From: Zygnema cylindricum
Taxonomy: Eukaryota > Streptophyta > Zygnematophyceae > Zygnematales > Zygnemataceae
NCBI GenBank assembly: GCA_037447655.1
Contig: JBBHKE010003155.1
Span: 321,333-385,332, forward strand
Direction: 5' to 3'
Length of the DNA: 64,000 bases
Shown here piece after piece: positions 32,636 through 63,765 of this stretch; the stretch's first letter is position 1; each line of letters starts with the position of its first letter. The notes below the pieces were generated by a model. That model made no database searches. It was given only the letters and a program-made list of their open reading frames with translations, and was not told where the DNA came from. A program made the position numbers and the translations under genes.

Positions 32636-32658
32636 GTTGACTAAGAATTCAGAGGAGC

Positions 32659-35622: not shown

Positions 35623-35627
35623 CTTGC

Positions 35628-36368: not shown

Positions 36369-36378
36369 GGTTATATGC

Positions 36379-37245
36379 ATGTCATCAAGAATTCCAATAT
36401 TTTCGAGGGAAAAGTATGTTTACTGGGCGGAAATGGTGGAGATACATTTTGAGAATGTCAATCTTTTGGACATATGGGATGGTTCGCTGGATGAATCTGA
36501 TCGGTCATGGTCTAAGAAAAATACGCAAGCTCGTTCTATTTTGAAACTTTGTCTATCTGAGGATTTAGCTATGTCTCGGATAAAAATGAAAAAATAGCTG
36601 ATATTTGGAAATCTCTTAAAAATGATTATGAAAAGGCTAATGTCCAAGAAGAACTCCTATTGGCTCGAAATATTTGGTACTATAAGTACACTGGAGGTAC
36701 AATGGCTGAATAATCTATCACGTTTTGCATCCTTGTAGATGCACATGCTTGTGTAGGTGGGGAGTTCCCTCAGTTTCAACAAGCGGCATTGCTCATGATG
36801 GGTCTCCCTCGTAGTAATAAAGGAGCATCTGATATGCTCAAACAAAAAGATAAAACTAGCTGGACTTTACAGTTAGCTATCAATATTTTGCTAGAGGAGG
36901 AAGCTACATCTAATATTCTCAATGTTGAGCAGGTAGAGGCTTTTAATTCAGACTTTGAGAGGAAAAGACAGTTTAATCAGCAAAGAAATCAGTTTAATCA
37001 GCTCGGACAGTTTAATCAGGGTGGGAATAGACAATCCAACAATGCATAATTTGATTATTGTGAGAGAGGTCATGGATAAAATTTTTGTCCTAAGCTTAAA
37101 AAAGCTAACAATACAGGTTTATAGAGGTCGCGATGGCAACAAAGTCAATTTTACAAAAACTTCACGGGGCCTACATCTCGTGGAAATGCACTATGTTCAG
37201 CATCTTCATCACTCTAGGATGAGACTCTGACATTTTTTGAAGAGG
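36379..37245 (+). pseudogene. gag: Gag, copia element 2
   Basis: The ORF 36379-36597 opens SSRIPIFSREKYVYWAEMV, the normal copia gag start. It breaks at a stop at 36595 and continues in other frames through LKNDYEKANVQEE and 36789-37049 (QAALLMMGLPRSN-like, then a long Q/N-rich stretch). A degenerate zinc knuckle (DYCERGHG...NFCP) is near 37050-37085, with its first Cys lost. Confidence 0.75.
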
Positions 37246-40200
37246 ATGAAATGGATCTATTTGCTATGGCGGCAGCGATGGAGGGCGCGAAGAATCCTGG
37301 AGGGATAATGGATACGGGAGCGTCAACCCACATGTACTGGAACAAAGCCATCTTCAAAAATATGAAAACAACATCGGAGAAAAATATTTATTATGCTTGT
37401 GGAATGAGTGTTGAGACTCGTGGTGTGGGTGATGTGTCTTTGCTAGTGGATGTGGAGGGCAAAACAACTGAAATAACTCTTTACAATGCCTTATTTGTGC
37501 TTGACTTTAAGAAAGATATGTTTTCTACATCCTTGGTAGAGAGTAAGGGCTTTGAGGTTAATTTGAAAAATGGAAGGGAGGTTGTTAGCAAAAATCGCAA
37601 AGTTGCAGTTATTGGTATTAGAGATAATAGCAAGATGTACCGAAAAGATATGGCTAATACCAAGGAGAATGATGTTCTGTACTTAGGTGTTTTGCATTCA
37701 GATGAGTTGTGGCATAAAAAATTAGGCCATGTAAATTATGATAGTTTGAAAAAAATGGTCCTTGCTGGAAAAATAGATGGTGTATCAATCACATATCAGC
37801 CGGTCAAAACAAGTGATGGCTGCGCTTTGGGGAAAATCCACAGACTACCATTTCCTAAAGAGTCTGAGCATCGGTCCACAAAACCTTTACAACAAATTCA
37901 TTAGGATGTCTTTGGTCCTGCAAAGGTTCAATCTGCTAGGGGAATGAAATATATAATCACCTTCACAGATGATTTCTCCAGGTTTACAAAAGTTTACTTC
38001 ATGAAGGAGAAGAGTGAAGTGTTTGGTCACTTCAAACACTATAAATCATATGTTGAAAAACTTCATGATTTACCTATTTTGCAGCTCAGATCAGACAATG
38101 GTGGTGAATATACATCAAAAGAATTTGAAACCTTTTTACTCGAGGAAGGTATAAGTCATCTACTGACTGTTCCATATTCCCCGGAACAAAATGGGGTGTC
38201 GGAGAGATTAAATAGAACTCTCACGGAGAGCTCTAGGTCGATGCTCGCGGATAAAAATGTGGATATGAAATTCAGGGCTGAGGCTCTAAATTGTGCGGTT
38301 TATATTAAGAATATGATAGGATCAAGATTAATGATAAGATAAAGATCGGTAGACTCTACTCCTTACGAGATCTGGACAGGTAGCAAACCAGATGTTAGCC
38401 ACTTCAAAGTCTTTAGTAGTCAATGCTTTATCTTGGATACGTCTAGGACAGATGGAAAATGGAAACGAAGGGTTTACCGGGTAATTTGTTAGGATATGAT
38501 GATCACTCAAAAGGTTACAAAGTCTTTGTGTTTGAGAGGCAAAAAAAAAATATAGCAAGGAACATCAGTGTCAAAGATAGACTAGACTCGATAGACTTAT
38601 TTCACATGACAGAGCAGCAAAAGCAGCAAAAAGTACAACAGTATGTCATATTAGATTGCATGCAAGAAATTGTCCTGCAGATACAAAATTCTTGGGTGGT
38701 AACTCTGGAGTCCGACGCTCTCCGAGTTCCTCAACAATTTTAGTTCTAACAAGACCAACAGCGGTCCATCCATACGGATTGCAACGAGCGCAATCAGCGC
38801 AATGCACGGCATCGAACGATCTCAGCCTCAAAATTTCCGAGGGGGGAAAAGATTTGGCAGCCGCCTGCTAGCAAGCTCTCACTTTGCCTACTCGGCAGTC
38901 TCAGGGGAGCCCTTGACCATCCAACAGGCCTTCTCATCACCGGAGCTTTATCACTAAATCGAGGCAGCAAACGACGAAATGAAGTCGATCATGAAGGCTC
39001 AAACATGGAAATTTGTGGAACTTCCTTCGTACCGAAAAAGCGATCGGCAACAAATGGGTATTCAAGATGAAGTTAAATCTCAATAACACCATTGAACAAT
39101 ATAAGGCCAGACTTGTGGCAAAGGGTAATAATGTAAAGGAAGGAATCAATTTTGAAAAAACAATCTCTCTGGTTGTAAGATTTTCGACAGTTAGGATTTT
39201 GTTTTCCCTAGCTACTATAGAGGATATGGAAAAAAATCATATGGATGTAAAGACAACATTTTTGCATGGAGAACTAGAGGAGACCATTTGTATGCAGCAG
39301 CTTGAAAAGTATGCAAAACCAGGAAAAGAGCACTTAGTATGGAAGTTGCTTAAATCTCTGTATGGCTTAAAACAGGCCCCTAGCCAATGGAATCTGAAGC
39401 CTCATGATTTCTTGGCTAGCCAAGGATTTCAAAGGATAAAACTGATCACTCTGTCTGTGTTCTAAAAGGTGAAAATGGAATAGTGTATATAGCGGTGTAT
39501 GTAGATGATTTACTATTAATTTGCGAATCAATGGCTGAAATTAACAAAATCAAAATTGCTCTAAACTCACAACTCGAGATGAAGGATCTCGGTGAGGCAA
39601 AATATATTTGGGGTATTCAGGTAGAGAGGGACAGAAATAAGAAAGTAATAAAATCGACTCAAGAAAAGGCTGTTGGAAATATGTTAGATGAGTATGGAAT
39701 GCGGGGGTCAAAAGGATGTCTAACTCCAATGGAATTTTGGCAAAAGCTAGAGGGAGAAGAGACTGAACAAGGTGCCATTGTTAGCGAGTATTTAGAGTTA
39801 GGGGGAGAAGCATTCTATGACACAAATACCTTACAAACACATCGTGGGAAGCTTAATATATTTCATGAACAGTACCCGTCCTGACATTGCTGTAGCAATC
39901 GAGGTACAAAGCAGAAGTCTAGAGAATTCGAGAAAAATCTGATTCTGATGGAGCAATAAGAGTCTTAAGATATTTGGCAAGAACATCAGACCTCAAACTA
40001 ACACTAGGCGGAGGAGAAGTAAAGCTGCAAACATGGAGTGATGTAAGCTAGCCGACATCCCTAGACAGAAGTCCACCACGGGATTCGTTTTGCAAATTAG
40101 TAACGTAACATGTTGTTGGAGCAGCAAACTTCAAAAGGTTACAGTGCAATCGACAATGGAGTCAGAATATATGGCTGCAAGCTGGGCCCTCAAAGAACTC

Positions 40201-40484
40201 TTATGGGTAAAATCCATGATGTAAGAATTAAGATACATGTAGATTAGACCGCAGGTGATCTAGTGTGATTACCAAGCTGCCATTGCAATTGCCTCTAACC
40301 CAAGTCACCACTTCAAGAGTAAGCACATGGATGAACAATTACACTTTGTAAGAGAAAAAGTTTTTTCTAGGGATATCAAATTATGCTCTCATCCAAATGC
40401 AAGAATGGTTGTTGATTTGCTTACTAAAGCTCTTTGTGCTCCCAAGTTGAATTATTGTAGGGATACAGTAGGATTGCGTGAATA
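37246..40484 (+). pseudogene. pol: Pol (protease, integrase, RT, RNase H), copia element 2
   Basis: The protease site GIMDTGASTHMYW is intact (37251-37904). Integrase has the zinc-domain start LWHKKLGHVNYDS, with one Cys changed to Ser (SDGCALGK). It has DVFGPA after a stop, and SDNGGEYTSKEF and PEQNGVSERLNRTL (37944-38342), so the triad residues remain. RT lies in 39013-39465 (KAIGNKWVFKMKL, MDVKTTFLHGEL, LKQAPSQWN) and 39483-39884 (VYVDDLLLICES, intact YVDD). RNase H to 40484 keeps STMESEYMAAS and YQAAIAIAS, with several stops. It is less decayed than copia 1 but not functional. Confidence 0.9.
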
Positions 40485-40742
40485 GATAAGTAGCTCCACT
40501 CCGATACTGCTATACTGCGCTATGCCAAATTTATGATGTAATGGAACCAGGTGATTAGCTGCTATGGCAGCGCTACTATATTGCCATGATTCCGCTGCTA
40601 TGGCAAGGCTGCTACGCTGCAATGCTGCGCTAAGTGTGACAACGCAACTACGCTGATACATTGAATCTAAAGCTCTAAAGGAGTGTTGTTTTTGGAAAGG
40701 TTTAAGTCTAAGTAATTTCATATGACGACAGGGAGACAAATC

Positions 40743-41980
40743 TTTTGAAATTTATGTATTTTCTACGTTTGTATTGGAAAATAAAGAGTAAGTTAGCAAA
40801 GGCAACCTGCTTCTAGCTCAACTCTCTCTGGTCCCTTTTTTTGTTGCTATCATTGAAGACTAGAGAGAGAGCAAGAGCCATGGCTGTCTCAAGAGGATAG
40901 GCTAATTCGTAGTTTGTACTAAAATGGATATGCCGAAATCAAGAATTGATCCTGGTACCTACCATCCTATAATACATTAGTTTTAGCCAATAGCTTAGAG
41001 TCAACGATGGCTATGTAGGATACAATAGGTATTTATAAGTGTACAAAAACAGAATTCTAACCAACTAACAAATAACCAAAAACTGCTCTAGACCAGATTT
41101 GAACCAAGGTCTATGGTTATAGTTGTAGAGGTATGCCTTATCCAATAAGGCGTTGACAAAACGATAGAGGTATCGGGTTTAAATGGTATATAAACCTTGA
41201 CGCAAAGGCTAATTAACACCAGACTAACGATGGGGAATAATTCATGCATGTACGCGAATCTGAACCTTGTAAAATATGTTTTGATTTGACGGTCGGCATT
41301 GTAGCCGCCACGCGAAGTGAGCTTTTGGCGACATTCCGAGATAGCGTCACGTGGTGCCACGTGGCGTCATGTTTTTTGATACCACAGAAGATGGGAGGAG
41401 GAACCATGGCTCCCGATTTGACAAGTGTCACCTTGTACACCATGTCGTACAATATCCGTACAATAAGTACATCGCCCATTGTACCTTCTTGTACTATAAA
41501 ATGTTCCTATTGGAATAGGGTTTAGTAGTAGGTAGTCGTGAGTAGGCAGACCAAGACTTAGTGATATTTAGGTACCTCTCTCTAAGAGAGCTTGTAACTA
41601 TAAAGGTCATCTTTGACCAGCCATGACTTAATGCTCGGGTGAGCAAATTCAGTGATTCTTTTTGCTGCGGACTCAAGGGAGTTCAAGCTACATAGGGGTG
41701 TAGTCGGTCGGAGTCTTTGCGTGCCAGGGTGGCACTTATTCAGTGGGAAAGTCAAAGTGGGGAATATTGTCCAAAACACATATTCAAGCTTTGCATTCTG
41801 TGGTGGAACATAGCACACAGCACACCGAAGGTCTTCTCTTCATAGGGGTGAAGGTGTATTGGGGTTCAGATTGTCGAGGGATCATTCATTTCGGTTTATA
41901 TCAACTTGGAGTCGGCACTATCTAGATTAGCTTCTTTTGAATCTGCGAATTCTGTGGGCAATGGAACCCATAGAATTTCA
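40743..41980 (+). mobile_element. Solo copia LTR (1,238 bp) with perfect 5-bp target duplication
   Basis: It starts TTTTGAAATTT (TG mutated to TT) and ends GAATTTCA. Flanks are aaatc at 40738-40742 and at 41981-41985, an exact match. It aligns with the copia 1 LTRs (shared tgggaggaggaNcNatggctccc, cttcttgtactata, agtgattctttttgc) and even better with the LTR at 20484-21743. With no internal region present, it is a solo LTR left by LTR-LTR recombination. Confidence 0.9.
41095..41154 (-). promoter_or_regulatory. tRNA-like antisense segment in solo LTR
   Basis: On the - strand aacgccttattggataaggc (41154-41135) and ggttcaaatct (41105-41095) give a tRNA-like A/B-box pair at the position matching the copia 1 LTRs. 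A second, weaker one (aagaattgatcctgg, antisense) is near 40935-41010. Confidence 0.4.
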
Positions 41981-42695
41981 AAATCTACAAGGACATGGGT
42001 CATCACTTAAAGCACTGGTTCATGTATCTTGGTTTGACACTTACATCCACATCCACGTCACACATCAAGGGGAGACAACGCAGCTGCAATACATCAACGC
42101 AGCTGCGATATAGCAACTCAGCTGCGACGCAGTTATAAGAAAAGAGCAGCGACAATTTTAAGACAACGCAACTGCGATTACCTTTGATACGATCCGTACG
42201 CACAACGCTGCTACGGATATTTTAATATGATTCAATTTAGCACAGAGCAGCTGAGCAAGATATAAATCTAGTTAGATTAATGATAGCTTAGTGGTAGCCA
42301 ATGGTAGCTTGATAGATTAGTGTTAGCTCAGCAGTTTGACGTACCTCTCAGGTACACTAGTATCATCGGTACAACACTAGTATAAGACTTAGGACTCAGA
42401 ACAAAAAATGCATCTTGACTTCCAAGTAGTAAAGTGCAAAAAGTTTTTGGGAATCTTCTGAGTATTATATCTTGAGTGCTATCTAGTCAATTGTGCTGAA
42501 ACTTTAGGAGTTGTCATTGTTTATGCTACTCTATGATTTGATAGAGTTTTGTGAGGTTTGGATGGATGTATAAGGTTATGTGAGCACTTGAAAACAATTG
42601 TTTGATAGGATTTTTGATAGCTTCTGAGAGTGTATCATGTCTACTTCTACTACTAGTGCTGCTCCTCCACCTGCATTGGTGGTCGTAGAACAACA

Positions 42696-43000
42696 CCTGT
42701 TACTACCATATCTTGTCTTTTCTACATTGCTAAATGCGGCTCCAGGATATTGTCTACATTTTGGCAAAGACTTTAGTGAGCTCTGCAAATTAAGGATACA
42801 AAAAGTTGTTGGGGAAACAATTGGGGAAACAATTGGTGTAGTTGTTGTAGTCGGTGTTCACTGACGACCTGGGCCTCGGGTGAGATTTCCATGGCAACAT
42901 AAGACTCCACCTTATATCGTGCCTTCAAACAACTTGTAGGTCTGAGCTTAATCTAAAGAAAATTGATAGTATCTGGAGTTCGGGATCCGGAACTGATAAT
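42696..43000 (-). pseudogene. Cytosine-5 DNA methyltransferase, N-half, gypsy element B
   Basis: On the - strand, motif I appears as ILSIFFRLSSDLQVV (about 42980-42935). After a frameshift comes YKVESYVAMEISPEA with motif II, then HRLQQLHQLF, and finally QDMVVTG, which normally leads to the W-P-C of motif IV. At that point (42696) copia element 2 begins. Wording matches element C (VESYTTVEISPEA, HRLQQLHHLY, VDLVVAG), so domain identity is secure even though motif I glycines are lost. Confidence 0.85.
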
Positions 43001-43185
43001 TACACCACCTGTTGATTCAATTTCCGGCTTTTGGGTAGAACCTCTGAAGAATTCGAACAAGACTTGGAAGTCTTATCTATGGTAAAAACAGCTGTGATAG
43101 ATTGGTCCACTTCTAGCCGAAGTGTGGATATTTGTGATAATCTGTTCTAGTATCCCTCTTCCCACCGCTTAGAAATAGAGAAATG

Positions 43186-43695
43186 CTATATCACTTCACC
43201 GATGTTTCTGGCACTGGCGAGCAATTCTGATGGAGTGTCGGTGGCATAAACATGATAACATCCGGAAACGGAATCATTTGTTTTTCCCTGATTCCATAAA
43301 TCCAAGGGTACCACCACCTGGGTCCCATCCGGATCCTTAAAATAGCAAACTCTAACTTGCTCCTTCCACACACTTAAATCCATTTTCAACCTTGTCCCAG
43401 TGGCCATCCCCAACAAAATATCAAATTGCTTACCTTCCACCACGAAAAAGGGAAGCTGGATTCGGACTCGCTCACCCGCGTCATCAGATAACTCGATTAA
43501 CATAGCTTTGATAATATTTTGGACCGGCAGGTTCCCCACACTAACCGTACTAAGGCATATGTTACTAGGGCACATTCCCGGCCTTATTTCCTCGGGCATT
43601 TGCTGCAAAGCCAAAATAGTTATCAAGTTTGGGAGTGCTCCGGTGTCGACCTTTGTAACTTGGTATCCTCGTATCCATTTAATTTGAAATTTCAT
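43186..43695 (-). pseudogene. Aspartic protease, gypsy element B
   Basis: This open frame of 169 codons carries the catalytic VDTGALPNLITI at residues 16-27. The second conserved element is QFDILLGMATGTRLKMDL at about residues 91-108, with the usual D-I-L-L-G. It continues past the normal protease end by about 60 residues. It follows gag on the - strand, and about 190 bases further the methyltransferase begins. Its sequence differs strongly from the element A protease, which supports two separate lineages. The frame is open, but the element as a whole is broken. Confidence 0.8.
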
Positions 43696-46600
43696 GTCCT
43701 GTTGAGGATAAATGCTATGGATAACGTCTTATAATCCCTATCCGTCATAGGGGTCTTAGGGTCTGCGAACAAAAAGACTGATCTACGTTGGTCTGCCCTG
43801 TCTCATTTCTCTCCTCCCGAGTAAATTTCTTCTCCGAGGGCCTGAATTAGGATTTCTTTAGGCATGTTATGGGACAAGGCTAGTGTCTTCACATGGGTGA
43901 GGGCGTACGACATAAGTTGCATTAATAGCATAACTAATAATTTGGAGGAAAACGGTTGAGTTAATTGCAAAGAAATGGGGGAACTTGGTTCTTCCAGTTC
44001 CTTCTGCTCCCCTCCCTTTGATTCCTCACTCTCATTGTCTCATTCTGGTGAGGGTGGCGTTTCGCTTGCATTATCCTCCGAGAGTTCCGCCATATATGGT
44101 TTGAACCAATCTTGGTTGCTCTGTTTGTCTTCCTCTTGTTTCTTGGTTTTCTAATCTTCAAATTCGGGAGGAATTTTCTTCAAGGCAGAGGGAGGAGGAT
44201 TGGTGGGTTTGATTTTGAGACAGATGTCGTTGTTCTCAATCACCGCCCGAGGAGTGAAGGACGGAGGTCCCGTGACCTTTCGGTTGTGGTCCCCTTGGAT
44301 CAGTTTTTGCTTGTCCCTCCTCTGCTCCGATGTTGATTTTCAAAGCTGTCTGCGACTGACTCCCACGCCCACATTCCAAGCTCCTGACAGGAAGGTACGA
44401 GCATGATGAGCATTAGGAGGTTCCAAATCCCACCCCATGACATCGTCATCATCTCCACCCGCTATAGATCCTTATTCAAGCTCCGCTTACTTATGTACTA
44501 ATTCATGTTTCCTCCGTTTGAGTTTTTGAGCAGCCGTCAAAGCGAGAATGTTGGAGGAAGATCCTAAACGAAAGGTTGCCAATTTTGCAGCCATCGTGGC
44601 TAGTTGCTGGCTCTGTTGTTGGATGATATTCTCCGAGGTCAGTCTTGCTGGAACGAAGCGTCAATCTAGCTCTTCCATGGTGCGGCCCCAAGGGTAAAGG
44701 GAGCTTGGGGCCGAGGGTTTCGACATTTTCTCCCGCCCGTGAGCGTATTGCATCATATCCTTTGGGACCTTATTCTTTCGGAAACACTGCCCCTCCTTGT
44801 GTCTCATGAAACCGCAAGCCTCACACTTGGAGCCCTCGGTGGTGTATTTGCTCTTTAACTGGTTGGAGATTTGCGCATCATTGAATTTTGGATTCTGATT
44901 TGTCTGAACTGTGCTTGTGACATTTTGGTAGTTTAAACCCGGGCAGTTGGGCCGTAATTGTCTTTTGTCACTTATGTTTTTTCTTTGGATCCTCCTCCTT
45001 GTTTCCGTTCTTGCTGTTTATTGGTCATTTCAGCTCTCTGTTTTTCCCATTCCATTTGCTTTAGGGCCAGTTCGGGTTTGATTTTCTGGGAGCAACGTTT
45101 CCACCCATGATAGGTTTGCTGACAGATTAGACAATAGTACAAATAAACACGGTCGTTGGCCCCCATAGCTCGTTCTGATCCGCTATGGATCACGTATTTC
45201 CCCTGTAGCTTTTGCAAAGCTAGAAGTTTCGCTTATTGGTTATTGTCTAAAGGTATTTCTTCGGAAAATCCTGCAAAATTTCCCTTGGTTTTGCCTGTTA
45301 CCGCCTTTTCCCTGGCTTCACTATGAACAAAGTGGTCGTAGAGTTATATGACGACCAGCGAAATTTTTTAAGCAAAGAGATTGATATCTTGGATTGTCTG
45401 GCCTGCAACCCAATTGTTGAGTGCAGTCTGCCTCGTGGGCCCGAAAGAATTACAGACGGCGATGAAATATTTGGTAGTCATAGCCAGAAGATCGATGGTC
45501 GAAAGTTTTATTTTTTGACAGAGGCTTGACTATCGGTTATAATGGGTTTATGGTGTCTCGCTTTTTAGACACCGCAATTCCGTTAATTCCTTTATAGCTG
45601 ATTCACTCCTCTCGGTGTAGAGGAGCCTCCAAATGTTCAAAATGGTAGTGTAGGGGGTAGTGTTTGTGACCATCCTTCTAGCAACTCAGGCGGCCCAGAT
45701 AGCCTGTGGTTGATTGACATACGCTTGTCCCTGTGCTTATAATTTCATGTCCTCTATGAATGTAGCTATAACAGGGGCTTCCGTAGCCGCAGCTAGATCA
45801 GCTTCTAGTTGCAAGAAAGCCGCGTCAAGAGCCGGATATGAGATCTTGATGTTTGGGGCTATTAAAATGGGTTGCCGCTCTTTGTAGTCCGCCAAAGCCC
45901 CTCCAGAGAGGTAGTTGACCATCATTGGGAAAAAGGTAGTCTCAAAGTCATCTGGGATTGCTCCTCCTCTAAACTTCTTTATCTCGGATTGTGTGAAAGA
46001 TTTCCACAACAATTCGAAATGAGAAAATGTGATCCTCGAATTGTCCCCTATAAATATCTTTACATCCCCCTATTCTTTCTCCTCCTCCATAAGGTTGGTG
46101 AATTGGGGCGAGGAAGGCTGGTTGGGATTGACAAATTGAGCTAGTGAAATGACACCTGAATCCTTACCTTCGGGATCTAAACCGCCTCCGCCTACGGTAG
46201 AAGATCTGCCTGGAGAGAAAAAGGCCTTCTTCTCACTAAGGAAGTTTCCCCGACTGAATATATCTCTGGAGAGTTTGTGGTTCCAGCTAGTCGCACTCCG
46301 ATCCTACCTGGTTTAAGCCGTGTCCTAGAACGACGACCTGTTTTTACAGATGGAAGTTTCAATTCAGGCCTGTGCGAAGGAATACCTTGGGAAAATGAAG
46401 ATGAGGGAGAAGATGGAGGCACGTGCCGGGGATATGGTGTAAACCCTAGAGCACTGCGTTCAAATTGGGATGAAGGTGGGTTTCTAGAGCCGGATGAGGG
46501 CAAGCAACGGTGAGGAGGGGAGTAAGCAATGATGATGGGTTTAGGAAGGGTGGATTTTGGGTCTGCAGCCGGCCCCAAGGGCTGGAAAGAAGGAGGTGAT

Positions 46601-49395: not shown

Positions 49396-50400
49396 TTTAA
49401 CCCACAAGAGGTGTTATTGACAATTCTTGATTCAGGATTCCGGATTGTATCGCTATTTTTTGGAATTATTTCTGATTTGGAAGTTGTTTTTAAAAAAGGA
49501 TACAATGTTGAATCCTATACAACCGTAGAGATATCACCCGAAGCACGAGCTATCAGCAAACACCGCCTACAACAACTCCACCACCTATATCCTCAACAGC
49601 TTCTTGTGTCCGCAATTTCCAAAGCTCACCGGAGTCTCCCCGAGAATGTAGAAAACATCATGATATTTCATTTAGCAAGTGTGGGAAGGGTGGATCTGGT
49701 AGTGGCGGGGTGGCCTTGTCAGGGATACTCCCTAGCAAGACAAAGAAAAGGGCATTAGGACAGGAGGAGTATAACATTTTTTAAGTTGGTGCAGTTAATC
49801 TCATGGGTACAATAGCTCCAGAACACACTAGTCAGGTACATTTTGGAGAATATCCACCTACAGGATGATAAAAGAAGACATGTGGCCGACAGCTAAAATC
49901 AGGTTACCAAAATTTTAGGGGCTCCATTTGTCTTTGAGGCAACACAGATGGGATACCAGGCCCAACGAGTTAAGGCTTACTGGACTAATTTGATCTAGCT
50001 TCCCGTCCTCAAGAAAACTCTCGCAGAAGCTGATCCCATACCCTCAAAATCTGGTGCAAGAGATCCTTGGAAAAGGGCCAATGGCAACACGCGTGACAAA
50101 AACCGACTATTCCCCGTTCTTCCGGTGCAACAAGCCGAGATTCCCACGCGAAGCATTTCCCACCTTGGTTTCCTTCCCTCACTGCCAGGCATATCGAAAG
50201 GGAACAGCTGGCATGATCTTTGATAGTGCATGGAGAATCTGGACAACACCGACAATAGCAAAAAGAGAAAAGGCCATAGGATTCCATCCGGACACCTCTA
50301 GCGCATCAGGTATATCTAACCTCCAAAGATGCATCTTAATAGGGTAGAACATGGATTTTAATGCAATCACATTGGTCTTACAGCATGTTGTTGCCTTTTC
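49396..50400 (+). pseudogene. Cytosine-5 DNA methyltransferase, gypsy element C
   Basis: The ORF 49411-49758 shows motif I as RIVSLFFGI (residues 11-19), motif II as TVEISPEA (Glu40) and motif IV as DLVVAGWPCQGYS, with the catalytic Cys103 codon at 49717-49719. After a stop at about 49756 come motif VI (RYILENIHL) and APFVFEATQMG with RVKAYWTNLI (about 49920-49996). A late block follows in frame 50054-50347 (MATRVTKTDYSPFF, then REKAIGF and GISNLQRCILIG), which matches motif IX-X. It is the only copy here with all blocks in one piece. The lack of large inserts and the R-x-Y-W-T-N block favour a DNMT3/DRM-like origin over DNMT1 (tentative). Confidence 0.85.
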
Positions 50401-50839
50401 ATGTCTTTAGTCACCAGAGTCTCGCACTAGTTACCTTCAAGCTCCTCAATTGGTTGCAATGCAGGCAACTTTGCAGCTTGAGGGGGATAAAGAAAGGAGA
50501 AAAACTAAAATTTAGCACCCGAGAGACCCGAGGGTTTCTCTGGTGGGGGGGAGCGGCAATTCAAAAGGGGATAGCTTAGCGGAAGTTGTCAGCACTAGGG
50601 TCCTAGTCGGAAGGGGAAAAGCGGACCCACTGGTGGGACTAGAATTCGATATCACCATTGGGGGCGACCACCGATAGCATGGGCAGCACTTGAGCCCACG
50701 GAAAAGGATTGGACCATAGGGGAATGGTTGGATCCACTGCAGAAGGCCCGACTCTAAGAACAGTTGTAAAAAAATAAGCAGGTGTTCTCCTGGTGAGAAA
50801 CTAATGTTGGTATCTACAAGGGAACTCCTTTCGGAATTG

Positions 50840-51650
50840 ATCTAACGGATAAGACGGCAACTGTTTGGCAGAAGCAGTATCCCCACAACTTTAAAGGGAA
50901 GGAGTTCATCACCGCCAAATTTCAAACTTTGGTGGAAGCCGCATTGGTTCAAGAGAGTACTGGACTCAATGGGTTTGCTTATCCAACAGTTCTCCCTCCC
51001 AAGAAGGATTCGTCCGAGAAAATTGTTAATTTTCAGATGTGTGGTAACTATCAAATGATGAACGTTGCAACTATTTTCGTATGGTATCCAATGTCAACCC
51101 CGGAAGAGATTTTTGACTCTCTTGCAGGGGCCACTATTTATTCCTCCTTGGACATGAAGAATGGGTTCCATCAAATTGCCATGGAATCGAAACACTAGGA
51201 AAGAATGACATTTTGGGCAGGTTCCAGGTTGTATGACTGGATTTATATGCCATTCAGGTTGAAAAATGCACCGGCTAAATTTCAACAGGCGATGGACAAA
51301 GCGCTCTGAGGAATTCATTGCGCCCGGTGCTTCATAGATGATGTCATCTTCTTCTCCAAGACCTTTAAGGAACACTTGAAGCATTTACTGATAGTCCCCC
51401 GGGCTATTAAAGCAGCCGATTGGAAATGCCACCCTGGCAAAAGTATCTTTGGGGTGCATAAGTTTATTTACCTCGGACATGAAGTGACCCACAGGACACT
51501 GGGCCCCCATATGGTCAAGGTGGCAGACCTTGACGCATTTCCTCCACCGCAAGACATCTCGGCCCTTTGCACATTTCTAGGTCTGGCTAACTATTACTGG
51601 AGGTTCATTCTGGAATTCAACAATCACGCCTAGCCTCTAAATCAGTTACT
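50840..51650 (+). pseudogene. Reverse transcriptase, gypsy element C
   Basis: RT shows VWQKQYPHNF (about 50865), the DPxx loop region PTVLPPKKDSSEKIV, MCGNYQMMNVATI (Asp of 'GDYR' replaced by Asn), ATIYSSLDMKNGFHQI and MPFRLKNAPAKF. The catalytic RCFIDDVIFFS is in the 51300s. The thumb shows WKCHPGKSIFGVHKF and FLGLANYYWRFI (51376-51633). Stops occur at 51197 and 51308. It directly parallels the B copy at 33558-34520. Confidence 0.9.
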
Positions 51651-52239
51651 GCGGAACGACCAAGAGTGGCAGTGGGCGGAAAGACAACACATTGCCTTCT
51701 AGTTCTTGAAGGATGGGTTGAAATAGCACCCCGTACAACGGATGCCTCATCACCAGAAACCTTTCCTCCTTTACACTAATTGGAGCAGGTTTGGATTGGG
51801 GGCACTTCTGCCTCAAATTAATGAACCGGAGCTAAGTATGTTGTGGCTTACGCCAACAGGAGTAACAACAGAGCGGAGGGAAATTAGTGCAATTAGAATG
51901 GATAGCTCCTTGCACGTGTTTGGGCAATCCACCATTTTTGGCCCTATTTATTCGGGGTTCGATCACTCTTATCACGAACCATCAACCTCTCAAATGGATC
52001 ATGGAAAACAAGAAGTAAGCCGGTAAACTCGCCAGATGGGGTTTGATCCTGTAGGAATACGATTTCAGTACAATCCACCGGGCAAGTGAAATCCACGGGA
52101 ATTCCGACTAACTTAACCATAATCCCGATCCTTCCACTCTAGAATCTACCGCAGCTCGACACCATGAGGATCCGGAGATTAGTTTAGGGATTTTTCAAGC
52201 CTCTTGCGCCTTTATCTGGCTTCCTCGATCTGGGGGGGA
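51651..52239 (+). pseudogene. RNase H, gypsy element C
   Basis: After a stop the reading PLNQLLRNDQEWQWAE leads to KPFLLYTNWSRFGLGALLPQ, the RNase H start, where the expected Asp of 'TDwS' is Asn. Decayed middle (ERREISAIRMDSSLHVF) and end portions follow, with stops near 52022-52200. It would degrade the RNA of the hybrid; here it is certainly inactive. Confidence 0.75.
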
Positions 52240-53470
52240 ATTGTCGACTTATGCGGCAAACGTGGTGGGGCAGGCACCAATAGGAGCTGGAATAAAGGAT
52301 ATTTGGAATGACCCGGATTTCCTCCAATCCATTTTTCAAGGATCCCCGCTTTCCCATCAGGATGGAGTTCAATTGTCTCGTGTGCAGACCCGGATGGCCG
52401 CGTATGACTGGGATCGAGGCATTCTCCTCGGGAAATGGGCGCACAAAACAAGGAAAGTGGTTCCTCTTCCCGTAGACCAAGAAACTCTAATCACACGCCT
52501 ACATCAGCAATGCGGACAATTCGAGCAAAAAAGGGCTACCTCCATAGCTATTAGATCCTATTGGTGGCACGGGTTGTTGACCAAAGTCAACCGAATTGTA
52601 TAGACATGCTCTTCTAGTGATCGCGTCAAAGCAGCTTTCAACAAAAAGGCGAGACAGAGCTTCATTCTCTACCCATCAATGGTATGTGGATCTATGGGGA
52701 CCCCTTCCGACCTGCATCTGTTAGGACCTACCTCTTCCAACCAGCAGGCGGGGGAATCGCTTTGTGCTGGTCATGATCGAACATTTTTCCAAATGGATCA
52801 AGTTGGTGGTTTTGCCTCGGAAGGAGTCAAAGGCAATTGTTGATGCTTATTTGCAGAGGGTGTTATCACAATTTGAGGCTCCAACGGAGGTTCACCCACA
52901 AGCCAACGGTTTGGCCGAAAGGTGCATATAGAAAGTGAAGGGGTCACTACTAAAATATGCAGTTGAAGAAGATTTGGGGGAGTGGTACAAAAGGGTGCCT
53001 TGGAATGCCATGGGTTACAGGTTCAACAAGCAGGCGTCTCTCCACTCTTATAGCCATTACTTCATCTTATTTGGACGACATCCCATCCTGCCCGGAGCGG
53101 CATCGGCCCAGGTAGTGGTTCTCCCCGAGATGGATAACAAGGGGACTGTCAAAAAACTGATCGCCAAGAGAGCTAAAGTATTACACCGAGAGATACCTCA
53201 TGCCATGGGGAATTTACAAGCGGCTCATCACCGTGATCAGCTGTGATATTCTCAACGTAGGAGCGGAAATGTTCCAAGACAACGACGATTTATGCACGGG
53301 GACTTTATATATCGATGCAACAGGAAAAGGAAACGCTGGATATTTCTGTCGGGCGAGTAATTTTGAAAGTGGTGGAGGTTTCTAACAAGGGAGTTTTTAC
53401 CTTCGAGGGGAAGGATGGCCGAAAAATTAAACAGAATCAAATCAATGTAGCCCCTTGTCATCTTTGAGAT
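52240..53470 (+). pseudogene. Integrase with internal deletion, gypsy element C
   Basis: The zinc domain (52241-52603) reads TRMAAYDWDRGILLGKW and LHQQCGQFE. The second His is Gln, and the later CxxC is CSSS. The core keeps IEHFSKWIKLVVLPRKES, but the text jumps from FEAPTEV to HPQANGLAERCI (about 52880). The segment with the second catalytic Asp, present in B as TDHDSEF, is therefore deleted (about 35 codons). The C-terminal part (52935-53246 and on) shows FILFGRHPILPG and RDQL-YSQRRSG, and ends with NVAPCHL near 53455. It lacks the PHD finger found in element P. Confidence 0.85.
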
Positions 53471-53707
53471 TGGAGGACGAACTCACTTTCCACTTCACTT
53501 ACTTTGTCAATCCTCCTTCCTATTCAACAGCTTGCTATCTGTCCTTTTAGCCGTGCAACGTCTTGGTCTGCAATCAGTGAGGTCAGTGTTGGCATAAAGC
53601 CTGTCTCCCCTCCTCGTGGGAGCCACGTCCTCCACCCTCCGACTCATGGTTCTGCAAGAACTACAAATTGGGCGGTTAATTATTTTATGTCTTAGTCACG
53701 GTTTACT

Positions 53708-53999: not shown

Positions 54000-56900
54000 C
54001 TAATTCACTATCTAATCCAATTATCTATCTAATCTAATTATATATCCAATTTAATTATATGTCTTATTATTTGTCGAATTATTTGTCTGTCCAATTACCA
54101 AAAGTCATCTGTCAAATTATCTATCCAATTATCTGTCAAATTATCCGTCCAACTATGTGTCAAATTATCTGTCAAATTATCTGTCAAATTATCTAATCTA
54201 ATTATCTGTCAAAATACATATCTAATCTAACTACATAGCTAATCTAACTATTTATCTAATCTAATTATCTATCTAATCTAGTTATCTATCTAGTCTAATT
54301 ATCTATCTAATCTAATTATCTATCTAATCTAATTATCTGTCTAATTATCTGTCTAAGTATCTGTCTAATTATCCGTCTAATTATTTGTCAAATTATCTGT
54401 CAAATTATCTCTAATTATGTGTCAAAATATCTAATCTAATTATCTATCAATTTATCTGTCTAATTATCTGTCTAGTTATCTGTCTATCTATCTGTCAAAT
54501 TGTCTAATCTGATTATCTAATCTAGTTATCTAATTTAGTTATCTGTCAAATTACCTATCTATTCTATTTACCTACCTAATCCAATTATCTATCTAATTTA
54601 ATTATCTGTTTAATTATCTGTCTAATCATCTGTCAAATTATATAATCATATTTGTCAAATTATCTAATCATATTTGTCAAATTATCTAATCTAATCATCT
54701 CTCATATGTTGCATTAATAAGTTTTTTTATTTTAAGTAATAAATGCATTACTGAAATTAACCTCACCAATGGAATTCAACAAGTAGACTGAGATAGGCAA
54801 TTGTCTCGAAAAAAAATATCTCCCATCGTTTGAGTTGTCGATGGGGGTTTTGGATTTTTCTCCCTTTATCTGCCTATGTTGCCTCATGTGAAGTGGTACA
54901 ATCACAAAATGACTGGTTTGTATTTTCTTGAATTAATATATATCTCTTATGTTATCTCAAATCACATTAAACAAATAAAGCTAAATAGTCAAGGGTAAAC
55001 AAATGGTTCGGTGTTCACAAAAACCCTAAAAAACCATAAAAACCCCTCAGACCTTTTAAAGGATCGACAATTTAACCTAAATCCTCCTATTCTTTTTTTT
55101 TCAGGTTGGGGCCAAAGTTTTTGATTTATTTTCCACAGCATATTACATTCCAATTTATATTTTTCCTGCCCTACAAGAGGATAGTGAAATGATTTGTATA
55201 AAAATGGAATTCAAAGGAGAGAATAGATAGAAGATTCAAAAGAAAGTGGAAAGATATAGAAATTTTTCGAAGTTCAGAGCCTACATTCAGTTTCGGAGTG
55301 TGTAAAATAGTGAAACTTTGGAGCCATAATTGTTTTTTTTATCATAACTACTAAATGATTGTAATCAATTTTTTTTTAATGATAAATATTTTTAAGCCAA
55401 TGATACTTTCAGTGGCGATGTTATTACTCTTTATTTCACTAGAATATGACTTTCTTTTGTTTTTTACCAAATGATTTTTATCTTGTACATGTCTGTGTCT
55501 GCAATGTTATGTTGTTTTTTTTTTCTTTTGTCATGGATGATGATCACACAGCGACAAGGCATTTTCGTCGTTGGATTATAAACCATTGGAATGTTGTATT
55601 TTTTTTTAATCTTTTGTCATGGTGATGACTGATCAGCGACGAGGCATTTGCATTTTTGTCGCTGGATTATAAACTAGTTATGATTCATGTTATAGCTGAC
55701 TAATCAACTGACTCAACCGACCTACCGGCGACGTAAGTGTGTCGCCGCTGAACTGTAAATTAACAATAAGGCAACATCGCCATTTAATTAAAAAGCAGTA
55801 AGGACATTGTGTCATTGCTAAAAAATCCTTCCGCTATGAGACAATGTCATCGCTGAAAATCCCACCGGCAATGAGAAATTGTCAACGCTAATCAAATCAC
55901 AATAAAATAGTCCATGTCACTGGTGCGACAGTGATCAGCGATGGGGCGGGCTCGTCGCCTAATATCAATGACGTAAAAAACACGTTTGTGTATTAAAGGT
56001 ACAAACTAAGAATCTGTTCACCAGTTACAACATCATGTTTCCCATAGGTGAATGACAAACACACCTTAACACATTAAGCATGACAAACCATCGCTCTAAC
56101 ACATACTCATATATTGCAAAAGGAAAATCGTGTTTTATAAAATGGTATCGTTTTGGCATACTTACTTCACAATGAAGTAAATTAAAAAATTGCAAAAACA
56201 ATTACATTGTAGTAAGAGACACACTATGCGACGTAATACCCCCTATGATATTGTATGATAACTCTTATATCCTAAATCCTAACACTCCTTAGATTTTTAA
56301 AACTGGTAAGACAAGCCAAAGCAACAAAAACTACAAAACTATGTCACTCCTACACTCCAAGAACCACGAAGCATTAGCAAGGGCTTAATATTGGTCCCCT
56401 TCCGTTAATTGTTCGCCCGTAACCTTAGATTTTTGAATAGAGACGTCAACGTCCTGAGATTTTCCGAGAGACTCCCGTGCCCTTGCCAAAGGAGGTGATA
56501 TTGATAATTAGAGTAGAGTGATAATTAGATTACCCACATAATTAGATTAGGCAAATAATGAAATTAGACAGATAATTAGATCAGACAGATAATTAGATTA
56601 GAAAAACAATTAGATTAGCCAGATAATTAGATTAGCGAGACAATTAGATTAGCGAGATATTTAGATTAGCCAGATAATTAGATTAGACGGATTATTAGAT
56701 TAGACAGATAATTAGATTAGAGAGACAATTAGATTAGAGAGATAGTTAGATTATAGAGATAGTTAGGTAGGACAGATAATTAGGTTACACAGATAATAAG
56801 ATTAGCCAATTAATTACAGTAGGAAAATAATTAGATTAGAGAGATAGTTAGATTAGAGAGATAGTTAGATTAGAAAGATAGTTAGATTAGAGAGATATTC

Positions 56901-57322
56901 AGATTAGACAGATATTTAGTTTAGCCAGTTAATTACATTACGCAAATAATTAGATTAGAGAGATAGTTAGATTAGAGAGATAGTTAGGTTAGAGAGATAG
57001 TTAGATTAGAGATATAATTAAATTAGAAAGATAATTAGATTAGATAGGTAATTGGATTAGATAGAAAATTAGATTAGCCAGTTAATTACATTAGGAAAAT
57101 AATTTGATTAGAGAGATAGTTAGATTAGAGAGATAGTTAGGTTAAAGAGATAATGAGATTAGAGAGATAGTTAGATTAGAGATATAATTAGATTAGACAG
57201 ATAATTAGATTAGACAGATAATTAGATTAGGAAGATAGTTAGATTAGACAGATAGTTATATTAGACAGATAAGACAGATAATTAGACAGATAGATTGATG
57301 GATAGATAGACAGATAGGTATA
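54000..57322. mobile_element. Foldback-like element 1 (tandem-repeat arms in inverted orientation)
   Basis: The left arm (54000-54705) is a tandem array of ctaattatctgt / aattatctatctaatct units. The right arm (56500-57322) is built of the reverse complement (agattagacagataatt / agagagatagttagattag). About 1.8 kb lies between them. Inverted arms made of short tandem repeats around a loop are the hallmark of foldback elements. No transposase was found. A target duplication was not recognised. Confidence 0.6.
54706..56499. other. Loop of foldback-like element 1
   Basis: No ORF above 60 codons. At 55510-55680 two ~85-bp tandem units each contain a cagcgac...gtcgctg hairpin, and further GCGAC/GTCGC pairs continue to about 55985. 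A near-palindromic ttcacaatgaa lies near 56165. The rest is AT-rich. Confidence 0.5.
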
Positions 57323-58985: not shown

Positions 58986-60045
58986 TACTTTATCTTAGAT
59001 GTGATGTTTGTTTCATGTTGATGTGATATTTTCTAATGTTAATGTGATGTTTAGTTGATATTGATAATGTTGATGTAATATATATATATAATGTTTGTAT
59101 GATGTTTTTTTAATATTGATGTAATGTTTTTTTTGAAGTTTGCACAATGTTTATATAACACTCATGTATAGTTCATATACTGTTCCTATAGTGTTAATGT
59201 AACATTTATGTGATATTGTTTCATTTTTTGAAATGTTTATTTAATGTATATCCAAAGTTTATGTAATGTTTACACAAAGCTCTTACAATGTTTTTGAGAT
59301 GTTTATATAGTCTCTCTATAATGCTTTGTAATGTGGTTGTAATGTTTCTGTAATGTTTGTGTAATGTTCTTCATTTTATACCCTTTTACATAGATATTAC
59401 ATACACATCATATATGCAGTATTCACACTACTCTTCCAATACAAAAACATATGATAAAACATGTATGGTTTTTAGTTTGGACGTCAAGAGCATTGTCACG
59501 GCATCTAATATCATCAAAAGCGTGGGAAAATGATCTGATCCTCCGTGCAAATCGTTTTGGACATGACTTTATCATCGGTACGAAACCTTCTTTATACACC
59601 GTACTGCCACGCCAGCTATGTCGCTATGTTCGCGTAGGTGCTGTACGCAATCTGACACATGTAACTGCAAATATATCCGCCGCTATGCTTTAGTTATGTC
59701 GAAAACTAACAATTCAAATCGTGAGCTGTTAATACTGATCATCGCATGTTTCGTATTTTATGTCAGTTTAGTATGAATACCGCACTAAACAACACATAAG
59801 CATTATTATCTCAGCATTGTGTAATCATTACACAATATTACAAAAACATTGTATGAACATTATATAAACATTATATCAACATTATGTAAACAATACACAA
59901 TAATACAAACATTATATAATCATTTCATAAACATTGCATATATATATAAAAACATTATACAAGTATTACGCAAACACTAATACAAACATTATATCGACAT
60001 TTTACAAACATTACTCAAAACATAAACATTATTTAAACGTTCCTA
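58986..60045. mobile_element. Foldback-like element 2 (TGTAATGTTTR arms)
   Basis: The left arm (58986-59375) is a degenerate array of ~12-bp units such as tgtaatgtttat. The right arm (59815-60045) is the complement (aaacattatataaacatt). About 440 bp lie between. An 80-codon ORF in the loop (59451-59693) has no family resemblance. It has the same architecture as element 1 but a different repeat unit. Confidence 0.5.
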
Positions 60046-60944
60046 ACTAGTTGCGAGTCTGTATATCCCTATTGTTTCGAATAAAAAGATCCTCAAAATA
60101 CAAGAGATAACTATTATAAAATTGAAATTCTCACAGACAACCATCGTTATTTGAAAAAACAGAAATGCAAATAAACAAAAATGCATATTCATAAAATAAC
60201 TTTATAAAATGTGCACAAATAAGGTCGCATCGTCAACATTAATTACATCTTTGAGCTCTGTAAACGCAAATATGTTTTTATATCGGTACCTTTCTCAAGA
60301 ACAAAGGGAAATTAAATGGGTGTTTTACATACAAAAACCCAAAAATGTCCCTCTCTTCCACTCTCCTCTCCCTCCCGCTCCCTCTCCCTCGCCCTTTCCA
60401 TGTTCCTCGCTTTCCCTCTCCCTCTGTTTTTGTCCTATTCACACAATAATATACATTATTTTTCCCTCCCGTTACCCTTATCTCTCTTGGCCCCTCCCTC
60501 CCTCCCTCTTTGTCCTATCTCCCTCTCCACCTCCCTCTCCCGCCACATCTGTCACATCAGTGTCCCCCCACACCAGGGGGATGCTTTCCAACTCCGGGGG
60601 GGTGGCGCCCTGGAATAAATTAGAGGGTGAAATTAACAAAAGAATTATAGAGTAAAAGTAACTAAGTTCAAAACAAAAAAAAATGGGGGCAATTAAAATA
60701 GGAAATAGGGGCAATGCTTTCGACTGCATAGATGTCTTATGCGCATAAAATGCGTGCATGAAATGCTCAAAAAATAACGAATATGCGCATGAAACAAAAT
60801 TCAAAACGTTATATAATGCGTTGACCGACTTTGACTTTATAATATAAGAAAAAATATGAAAACATCTAATGGAGAGAGGCATAAAAAAAATACTTCTACA
60901 ATTTAAATACTTAATCAACCTTATTTTTGTTTTAGGTTAATATG
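60046..60944. other. Gene-free DNA with a polypyrimidine tract
   Basis: At 60350-60545 the + strand is C/T-rich (ctccctctccctc units). The long ORFs crossing it on both strands are compositional. No gene is supported. Confidence 0.6.
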
Positions 60945-61470
60945 TGTATTCTTTAATTAGCGTTAGTTACTCTAATTTCCACTGCATTTAAAAAACAGAT
61001 TGTACGAATTGTGTCAGTTCGTACTAAAACCAATCATTATTTCATACAGACGTACAAAATAAGTGTCAGGTAATAGCGTCGACAGGGGAAATTGAGTGCG
61101 TCGCCACGGAAAAGCATACTCAGATTTGATTCCCAGTCATAAAGACGAAGGAAAATCACGGAAACCTGTTCTCACATGTTCAAGTGTGCTCGCAGACTAT
61201 AGGTACTGTTTAATTAGCGGTAATTGCTCTAAATTCGACTTATTTAAAAATTAAATAGTGGTGTAAAAAATGAATCACATTGTACAAAAATTTCTCATTA
61301 TTTTGTACAGTCGTACAGAAATAAGTGTCAGACAAAGGCGTCGACACATGAAATTGAGTGCGTCGCCACGAAAAAGCGCACTCAGATTTGATTCCCATAG
61401 ACGAGGGAGAATCGCAAGAACCTGTTCTCACATGCTCAAGCGTCAAATATGTGAACAAAGACTATCGCAG
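60945..61470. repeat. ~255-bp tandem duplication
   Basis: Two diverged copies begin at about 60950 (ttaattagcgttagttactctaa) and 61208 (ttaattagcggtaattgctctaa). Both continue in parallel through tcgtcgacag/gcgtcgacac, gaaattgagtgcgtcgccacg and cagatttgattccca to cctgttctcacatg. A short third start (aaattagcgttag) is at about 61498. No coding sense is seen. Confidence 0.75.
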
Positions 61471-62320
61471 CTACATCCAAATTAGTGTTGGATGTATAAA
61501 TTAGCGTTAGTTTTTGACATTTTGTTGGCGTTAGGCTCTTGAACCCAAAATAGTATTTAGCTCTAAAAGCGATTCACGGTGTACGTTCAACCCTAGATTT
61601 GAATATTTCCGTACATTACATCGGTACATTTATTCCGTACGAAAAGTATACGCATTTTACGAAAGGTTCAAAATCTATAAAAAATAACTAAATTTCATAA
61701 AAATGTCAAAATCCGTACGAATGAGACATCTATGTTCGACTATAAGGAGCTACATCTTACACCACAAATAGAGTTGAGGATGTTGATTCATTCATTTTTT
61801 CTTTAACATAAAATCATAAAATCGTGTTGATAACAATCACATACTAATTAAGTGGCACGAAATAAGTTAAGAATTCCAACATTAATTTTGGTGTTTTTAA
61901 TATTAATACCACATGAAACGTTAATTCTTCACTAACTCCAATGCAAGGTGTAGTAAATCTCACAAAAAAGGGGCGTAAGATGGGATTAGATTTCAAAAAA
62001 CTTAAAAAGGGAAAACGGATTTAGTATTAAAACAAGTGAAAATAACACCAAAGTGATCAAATCTAGTATTAGAAGAGGTCCAAATAGCGAAAAAAGGAAA
62101 TAAGCAGAGTGGACGGAGAGTAGAATTAGAATACAAAGAATGAAATAAAGATAAAAACATATAAATAGAGGAAACAGGAAAAGAAGGAAACATAGAAAAG
62201 TTCTCAGTAGAATTAGCATAAAATAGGTCAAAACAATAAAAGTGTGAAACAGAATAAAAATACCGAGAATATCCAGACTCATGCCCCAAATCCTGTGTAA
62301 ATAATTTTTCAGTTTCTCAC
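61471..62320. other. Non-coding; possibly intron or 3' part of the - strand gene
   Basis: The segment gttggcgttaggctcttgaacc at 61520-61545 recurs as gttggcgttaggccttcgaacc near 7287, probably a mobile-element remnant. At 62000-62320 the + strand is A-rich. A hydrophobic - strand ORF there lies beyond a splice donor and is likely intron. Further exons may exist but I cannot identify them. Confidence 0.4.
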
Positions 62321-62626
62321 CTTTTTTCTTTGGACAAGATTTACTGTAGAAATTAATGATGTAATCGGGATCTCCTCCGAGTTCGTAAGTCATCGCCGAT
62401 TTGAGACAAGAACATTTTGCGTCGTTGGTGTATTTCCCGAAGCTTACGAAAAAACCCCATTTGTAATTCTTACAAACGATACTACATCGATTAGTGGATC
62501 CTCCGTGGGGCCACACGTCCACACTATTTGTTGCATTAGTCTTGAACGTAGGCCCAGTAGGGGGAAACCCATAGAAAAAATAGAAAAACCCGTACGGGTT
62601 CGAACTATTGTACGAAACGGCACAGC
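62321..62626 (-). CDS. Exon of a host gene: cysteine-rich, WSC-like extracellular module
   Basis: On the - strand a 306-nt exon is bounded by an acceptor (atgCAG at 62630-62627 region, exon from 62626) and a donor (GTGAGA from 62320). It encodes about 101 residues, including GCAVSYNSSNPYGFFYF, PHGGSTNRCSIVCKNYKW, KCSCL and SKSCPKKK. The pattern of paired cysteines with aromatic residues (C-x3-C ... C-x-C) resembles a WSC carbohydrate-binding domain, but the match is weak. The exon starts and ends in phase 1, like the three microexons upstream. The frame also stays open into the hydrophobic downstream stretch, which I read as intron. Product unknown; secreted or surface location is inferred. 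Confidence 0.5.
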
Positions 62627-63044
62627 CTGCATATACATAGAACATTGAGTGAATTTGAGTATGAGCCTTTAGTTTTTTTTATTTCTAGAATGGAAACGAG
62701 GAAGGAATTAGTAAGATGCTTTTGTTTTCAAGTTTTGAGGAAGGAAAAATTAAACGTGAAAGGACAAATTCGCTCGGAAACAATTTTCCTTTCAGATTAA
62801 TTGGTTAGTTTTCATGAGAAAGTACGATCTTGGTGACAAGCTGTAATAAAATGTAATGGAGTTGTAGTGTGGTTTGCTAACTCTTTTTGCGTCAAAATTG
62901 AAAAATGTTGATTTGTTGAAGGAAAAAACAAAATCTTACGAGAAAAAACACACTAACAACTTTTAAGTATTGAAGGTGAAGAAACTGTTGAGAAACTTCC
63001 AATTTTACCACCCATTTTCAGTTTCAAACTTAAATAAAACTTAC

Positions 63045-63071
63045 GCTTTGGTGCGAAGGGTGGCGGAGGTC
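63045..63071 (-). CDS. Proline-rich microexon (27 nt)
   Basis: On the - strand TTTGCAG is followed by 27 nt and the donor GTAAGT (63044-63039). In phase 1-1 it encodes PPPPFAPK. The intron to the cysteine-rich exon would be 418 nt. Confidence 0.45.
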
Positions 63072-63300
63072 CTGCAAACCATCCAAACCCCGAAGTCCAA
63101 GTTTCAAGACATAGAAAACAATAAGGAGACCCACTCTATTTCAATCACTCGCCCATGTCTTTCAGTTTCACTTCCTCAATCAACAACTAAACATCCATTC
63201 TTTCCTTTTTAGAAACTTTCAACAACTCAAGTGGACAGAATGATGTCATCACATGACGTGGCGTAGTATAAGGCAGAGGAATGGGACAAATGTCACGTAC

Positions 63301-63315
63301 GTGGTGGCGGTGGTC
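63301..63315 (-). CDS. Proline-rich microexon (15 nt)
   Basis: On the - strand TTTGCAG is followed by 15 nt and the donor GTACGT (63300-63295). In phase 1-1 it encodes PPPP. The intron to the next microexon would be 229 nt. Confidence 0.35.
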
Positions 63316-63738: not shown

Positions 63739-63765
63739 CTCTCTTTTTGCGAGGAGGGGGAGGAG
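63739..63765 (-). CDS. Proline-rich microexon (27 nt)
   Basis: On the - strand TTTGCAG is followed by 27 nt and the donor GTAAAC (63738-63733). In phase 1-1 it encodes PPPPRKKR. The acceptor context (gggatgggtttgcag) resembles those of the other two microexons, as if exon and acceptor were duplicated together. The intron to the next would be 423 nt. Confidence 0.4.

Follow-up and report, generated by a model that had tools for sequence, protein, structure and literature searches.

The 64,000-nucleotide stretch of Zygnema cylindricum DNA analyzed here (the window) holds three decayed copies of a numerous Ty3/Gypsy-type retrotransposon family, partly recently mobile, that carries a DNMT3-type cytosine methyltransferase (DNMT) in the order gag-PR-DNMT3-RT-RNaseH-IN-PHD (PR, protease; RT, reverse transcriptase; IN, integrase). 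Copies A, B, and C belong to two subfamilies, S1 (copy A) and S2 (copies B and C). Substitution patterns among genomic copies show that the DNMT domain has been under purifying selection.

The preliminary description of this DNA reported a cytosine-5 methyltransferase within a Gypsy element, and the analysis of copy C confirms it. The domain lies at 49441–50380 on the plus strand and is DNMT3-type and decayed. Motif I, the catalytic motif IV (AGWPCQGYS), motif VI (ENI), and the YWTNLI block, all named in that description, share one frame, and this segment with motifs I–VIII (49441–50022, +, frame 49393) is interrupted by four in-frame stops. The C-terminal part containing the TRD and motifs IX–X follows in a shifted frame (about 50042–50380, +). 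Read through with X at the stops, the domain matches the Pfam DNA_methylase profile at 28.1 bits (E = 1.8e-6; cut-off 22); a lack of any such match would have refuted the preliminary description. The first DNMT ORF alone reaches 18.6 bits, which is below the cut-off, and gives no match to solved structures at E = 0.001. A tblastn comparison with the intact environmental protein P0122 covers residues 862–1055 and 1066–1171 (E = 1.6e-58). The RT (50605–51640), RNase H (51641–52084), and a frameshifted integrase consisting of H2C2 and core (52112–53464) follow on the same strand, as first noted, and a weak PHD-finger remnant (53554–53655, +; Pfam 15.1 bits, cut-off 24) comes next. In copies A and B and in the other copies read, the DNMT does sit between protease and RT as described. 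Copy C itself is different, because it has no detectable protease and lacks the 5′ part of the element.

Copy B is on the minus strand, collinear with copy C, and 66–71% identical to it in DNA sequence by tblastn of pieces and blastn self-comparison. It is broken by two nested Copia elements (35630–42691 and 27257–33538), one of which splits the DNMT within motif IV. Read in the direction of the element, copy B has an ORF with a zinc-knuckle-like stretch resembling the P0122 gag (44661–45017, −; no Pfam gag family match), a protease-like domain with the sequence DTGA (43189–43728, −; similarity to P0122, no Pfam match), an in-frame TAG at the protease/DNMT boundary whose place is conserved across S2 copies (43186–43188, −), the N-terminal part of the DNMT up to the Copia insertion inside motif IV (42695–43049, −), DNMT motifs IV–X (34930–35633, −), RT (33559–34708, −), and the end of RNase H plus integrase (22396–24018, −). 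The right LTR of the 35630–42691 Copia element, within 40743–41980, contains an apparent solo Copia LTR with matches at 41095–41772.

Copy A is more distant from B and C. Its plus-strand half consists of an A1 terminal repeat (10669–11847; 75–77% similarity to S1 loci L021 and L025), a putative gag ORF without a Pfam match (12983–13687) enclosed in a region with 84% DNA identity to L021 (12902–14111), a protease-like stretch similar to P0122 and L010 (16030–16407), and DNMT motifs I–VI with WEC as motif IV (16771–17178). Its RT-RNase H-IN-PHD half (17178–20112) is on the minus strand and meets the DNMT where the latter ends, at 17178. The same tail-to-tail arrangement of an S1 protease-DNMT and an inverted S1 RT-IN-PHD recurs at genomic locus L034, and either an inversion or two separate elements would account for it. 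DNA identity to genomic loci is 84–88% for copy A with S1 locus L021 and 70–76% for copy C with S2 locus L023. Proteases were assigned by their resemblance to P0122 and L010. Pfam itself scores the protease of P0122, P0123, and L010 below its cut-off and shows none in L019 or the window ORFs. No terminal repeats were found around copies B and C with blastn. The six frames of 1–4802, 6651–9427, and 59100–64000 gave no Pfam match, and Rfam at the gathering threshold and a tRNA scan found nothing.

The family is abundant in the host genome. A search of the 352,776,454-bp assembly (2689 contigs) returned at least 123 DNA_methylase (PF00145) places above cut-off (123 of 123 scored, from 782 candidates), a number that may include host DNMT genes. 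The S2 DNMT query gave matches for at least 125 scored candidates (1859 candidates; 126 match rows, E = 2.5e-217 to 5.5e-50). The two lists overlap and each is a lower bound. Nine RbcS places and no rbcL were found in the assembly. The one read, L047, seems to have a transit-peptide-like exon separate from the mature domain; it is closest to short-type RbcS chains and aligns with gaps to 140-residue chains that are probably from Chlamydomonas, so the RbcS is of land-plant type and the host probably a streptophyte. Twenty of the 123 PF00145 places were read; most were selected because they had long open frames, which biases the sample toward intact copies. A PR-like domain and the DNMT are present in all 20 regions (14 S1, 6 S2), RT follows on the same strand in 18, the exceptions being L034 (RT inverted) and L038, and the PHD finger is on the same strand in 15. 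Copies with gag, protease, and RT but lacking the DNMT would have contradicted the original proposal; the intact copies carry the domain, but all copies were found through their DNMT. L019 is a single open frame of 2395 codons (2394 scanned by Pfam) without any stop that encodes DNA_methylase (44.4 bits), RVT_1 (103.7 bits), RNase H, H2C2, rve (44.7 bits), and PHD (38.1 bits) domains along with a zinc knuckle at 16.6 bits, below its cut-off of 20.8. By Pfam, the DNMT of L022 and L023 is likewise part of a Gypsy polyprotein that also contains RT, RNase H, and a DDE integrase. The pairing of S1 loci with copy A and of S2 loci with copy C recurs in the DNMT and RT trees, as read with the L013 row left out, and the deeper forks are mostly unsettled.

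The ends of the element were resolved in two S1 copies, L024 and L026, both of which have the structure A1 (about 1.4 kb)-internal-B1 (190 bp)-GC-A2-B2 (190 bp). These are split direct repeats rather than two full identical LTRs. A1 and A2 are 99.64% (1388 bp) and 99.5% (1475 bp) identical in the two copies, and B1 and B2 are 99.5% identical in both. The copies have TG..CA termini and are flanked by perfect 4-bp target site duplications (TSDs), AAGG and CCCT. The split-repeat result applies to S1; the ends of two S2 copies gave no resolved repeats. PR-RT-RH-IN order, TG..CA ends, and a TSD of 4–6 bp characterize a Ty3/Gypsy LTR element; the family has this order, and two of two S1 copies have these ends and a 4-bp TSD. 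Pfam finds no tyrosine recombinase in L010, L019, L022, or L023, and rve is present, so the split-repeat pattern is combined here with a DDE integrase.

The DNMT has a linear motif order of I-IV-VI-VIII followed by IX-X; the rearranged DRM-type order was not seen. Among solved structures, DNMT3A is the closest relative of both P0122 and P0123. Motif IV separates the subfamilies. It is WPC in six of six S2 regions and contains EC in all 14 S1 loci, where twelve have WEC, L030 has SEC, and L035 has a stop before EC. To our knowledge, the Pro-Cys of motif IV is near-universal. Decay was considered as the origin of WEC in copy A and rejected, WEC being the S1 norm among genome copies. EC is common to long-framed and diverged S1 copies and is therefore a lineage trait. 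The S1 copies L021, L030, and L035 keep the catalytic Cys, the Glu of ENV, and the Arg of AHRxR.

Selection on the DNMT was measured as dN/dS by the Nei-Gojobori method with codons containing a stop skipped and pairs that were saturated or had dS ≤0.02 set aside. Values are 0.10–0.41 in S1 (median 0.16; 9 of 36 pairs usable) and 0.11–0.26 in S2 (median 0.23; 6 of 6 pairs). All 15 usable pairs of the 42 are below 1, and not every pair is below 0.2. The RT gives 0.16 and 0.17 in S1 (2 of 21 pairs usable) and 0.10–0.19 in S2 (3 of 3). The integrase gives 0.01–0.09 in S2 (3 of 6) and 0.60 and 0.64 in S1, the latter from two of 15 pairs that are close and have few changes. Between the decayed copies B and C, the ratio of third to second codon-position differences is 2.1 and 2.8 in the DNMT and 2.5 in RT and IN, compared to 1.15–1.78 in five controls taken as non-coding (four partly overlapping Copia LTR pairs and one tandem duplication). 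For the sequence downstream of IN, which contains the PHD remnant, the ratio is 1.76 and thus inside the control range.

Pfam lists no chromodomain after the integrase and places a PHD match there instead. The PHD finger scores 39.9 bits in L010, 38.1 in L019, and 35.7 in copy A, where it is truncated at the 17178 junction. In S2 loci, the scores are below the cut-off of 24 (21.5 in L022 and 17.5 in L023). Solved relatives of this domain include UHRF1, CHD4, KDM5, and PHF21A. The PHD fingers of these proteins tend to bind unmodified histone H3 tails.

An environmental protein search yielded three matches at E ≤1 among 321 candidates. P0122 (43% identity) has gag-PR-DNMT-RT in a single ORF, and P0123 (40% identity) has PR and DNMT in an ORF that ends after the DNMT. 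In P0124 (32% identity), the DNMT is downstream of RT-RNase H, not upstream of RT, and by this domain order P0124 is a different architecture. In three environmental sequences the DNMT follows a PR-like domain, and in two of these an RT is encoded either by that ORF or by the next one in frame. Scanning prokaryote genome contigs with the P0122/P0123 domain produced one relative, L010 (CADCWO010000201.1). This contig of 9285 bp is deposited as part of a cyanobacterial MAG and is probably of eukaryotic origin, contaminating a publicly available prokaryote genome. A perfect 127-bp overlap between its ends suggests a circle, and it encodes gag-PR-DNMT, one in-frame TAG, and then RT-RH-IN-PHD. A few tRNA primer-site patterns were looked for in L010 and not found. 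The scan of viral contigs returned only loci taken for phage (L001 as examined, L002–L009 as listed), and tblastn against phage records gave no match.

The in-frame TAG between PR and DNMT is found at one conserved place in all 10 distinct S2-type loci. This set includes the diverged C412/C1100 type and copy B, counts the two loci each of C633 and C1374 once, and omits L017, which has no subfamily assigned, and copy C, which does not have the stretch. The hexamer following the stop is CAATTC in seven loci and CAATTG, TAATTC, and CATTTC in one each. CARYYA after UAG is a described readthrough motif (PMC3542737), and the prevalent CAAUUC (7 of 10) is one base off it. L010 has TAG CAATCA, a full fit to the motif, and its UAG sits after the DNMT, whereas the S2 UAG sits before it. 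The string TAGCARYYA occurs in the window at chance frequency (3 found, 3.6 expected). The S2 gag has no Pfam identification (no match for the L023 ORF), so a gag-PR product upstream of the stop is only inferred in S2.

This kind of element is already known. The attribution to the retroelement-borne methyltransferases described by de Mendoza et al. (2018, PMC5890265) is supported by the resemblance to KnitGypsy-Dnmt3 of Klebsormidium nitens, judged from its description rather than from K. nitens sequence. KnitGypsy-Dnmt3 is likewise reported as DNMT3-type, non-rearranged, intronless, located in a Gypsy Pol polyprotein, and under purifying selection, and its repeats are arranged as in DIRS elements (PMC5890265, Fig. 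4 legend), as they are in two of two S1 copies. The reported Ka/Ks is <0.2 (PMC5890265), compared to medians of 0.16 (S1) and 0.23 (S2) here. K. nitens is reported to have fewer copies than Symbiodinium (PMC5890265). The features of the present family that are absent from the main text of that paper are the PHD finger after the integrase, the UAG gate, the protease position, the EC subfamily, and the TSDs. The main text has no hits for PHD, protease, Gag, split direct repeat, or target site duplication, and its sole mention of a stop codon concerns LINEs. The copy number seen here is likewise not in the text of PMC5890265. A 2025 study also describes DNMT3 members embedded in streptophyte and dinoflagellate retroelements (PMC12344493). 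No report of a PHD finger, UAG readthrough, or split repeats in a DNMT-bearing element was found in the literature searched, in which subscription papers are under-covered.

SymbioDIRS-Dnmt3 and SymbioLINE-Dnmt share the retroelement-borne DNMT, and SymbioDIRS-Dnmt3 has DIRS-like repeats, but these elements use a tyrosine recombinase or are LINEs, whereas the present family has a DDE integrase (rve) and a 4-bp TSD. Chromoviruses are Gypsy elements that also have a histone-reading domain at the integrase C terminus, but the domain is a chromodomain in place of a PHD finger accompanied by a DNMT. Split repeats in a green alga are familiar from the TOC1/REM1-type elements of Chlamydomonas, of which REM1 is Gypsy-type; we know of no DNMT in these elements. 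PAT-type elements are described with split repeats arranged as they are at the S1 ends (PMC4157794).

We propose an account, with a probability of about 0.6, in which a gag/PR-UAG-DNMT polyprotein supports particle-borne self-methylation and PHD-guided integration. In S2, most ribosomes would stop at the UAG and yield the upstream gag/protease product, and a smaller share would continue through it into DNMT-RT-RH-IN-PHD. The protease would free the enzymes within the particle, and the DNMT, with the canonical WPC of S2, would methylate the newly made double-stranded cDNA at CG sites, either ahead of integration or while it takes place. The PHD finger attached to the integrase may help direct it to nucleosomes whose H3K4 is unmodified. 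The new copy would then arrive bearing the host's own silent-DNA mark. Of the functions that can be inferred for the DNMT, methylation of the element's own cDNA is the likeliest, and the model follows de Mendoza et al. One mechanism may not fit both subfamilies because S1, with EC in place of PC, may not methylate at all.

Alternatively, and for S1 at least, the domain may now serve the particle chiefly by binding nucleic acids or modifying RNA. The EC of all 14 S1 loci and copy A, together with dN/dS <1 in the nine usable S1 pairs, favors such a role, as does the finding that the one KnitGypsy-Dnmt3 domain assayed gave no methylation in yeast, a result its authors deem inconclusive; SymbioDIRS-Dnmt3 domains produced CG methylation in yeast (PMC5890265). 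The retention of the catalytic Cys, ENV Glu, and AHRxR Arg by L021, L030, and L035 and of WPC by S2 argues against it, and we consider a binding or RNA-modifying role unlikely, though with a real share of the probability. It is more doubtful still that the enzyme targets the host genome or host silencing rather than its own cDNA. Well over a hundred copies would be a large dose if expressed, and such an effect is discussed for Symbiodinium by de Mendoza et al. (PMC5890265), but the fusion of the domain with RT and IN in one polyprotein points to a role inside the particle, and the flanks at 0–3.9 kb and 57.3–64 kb are not CpG-depleted (observed/expected 1.23 and 1.07). A host DNMT gene or another transposon sitting by chance inside a Gypsy copy is conceivable in a window filled with nested Copia insertions. 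This nesting artefact has a negligible probability and is rejected, as is a chance match: the DNMT has the same position in three window copies and 20 of 20 fetched regions, environmental sequences share the PR-like-then-DNMT order, and nesting is refuted by the long uninterrupted frames that span DNMT to PHD.

CpG depletion was considered as a footprint of the preferred self-methylation and rejected as non-specific. The Gypsy and Copia stretches of the window have CpG observed/expected ratios of 0.55–0.86. Copy C (0.60) is depleted to the same degree as the Copia elements without a DNMT (0.60–0.63), and the 3.9–11.95 kb region with its S1-like terminal repeats is undepleted (1.23), so there is no DNMT-specific footprint.

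A more tentative idea, to which we give somewhat less than even odds, is that one family with a methyl writer and a histone reader has split into two strategies. S2 would have a gated canonical DNMT3, and S1 an ungated Glu-Cys pseudo-methyltransferase or an enzyme with altered chemistry, kept under selection. In L010, from another host, the gate is positioned behind the DNMT, so on this idea the DNMT dose per particle would be an evolved variable. Plant transposons are kept in check mainly by cytosine methylation. Here, a genome parasite with well over a hundred copies bears parts of the machinery by which it is normally silenced, a histone-reading finger and a de novo enzyme that it keeps under selection. 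Gated canonical and ungated EC versions, together with Copia elements lacking a DNMT, form a natural experiment in one nucleus in which the question of why an element would methylate DNA becomes directly testable.

The window has two further repeat features. A 2.5-kb direct duplication (4106–6650 and 9424–11933) is 97.9% identical with its two parts 5.3 kb apart, and both parts include an S1-like terminal repeat beginning TGTCATGCCGC. Downstream of copy C, 54000–54700 and 56400–57300 contain tandem arrays of 12-bp and 17-bp units that are partly reverse-complementary to one another.
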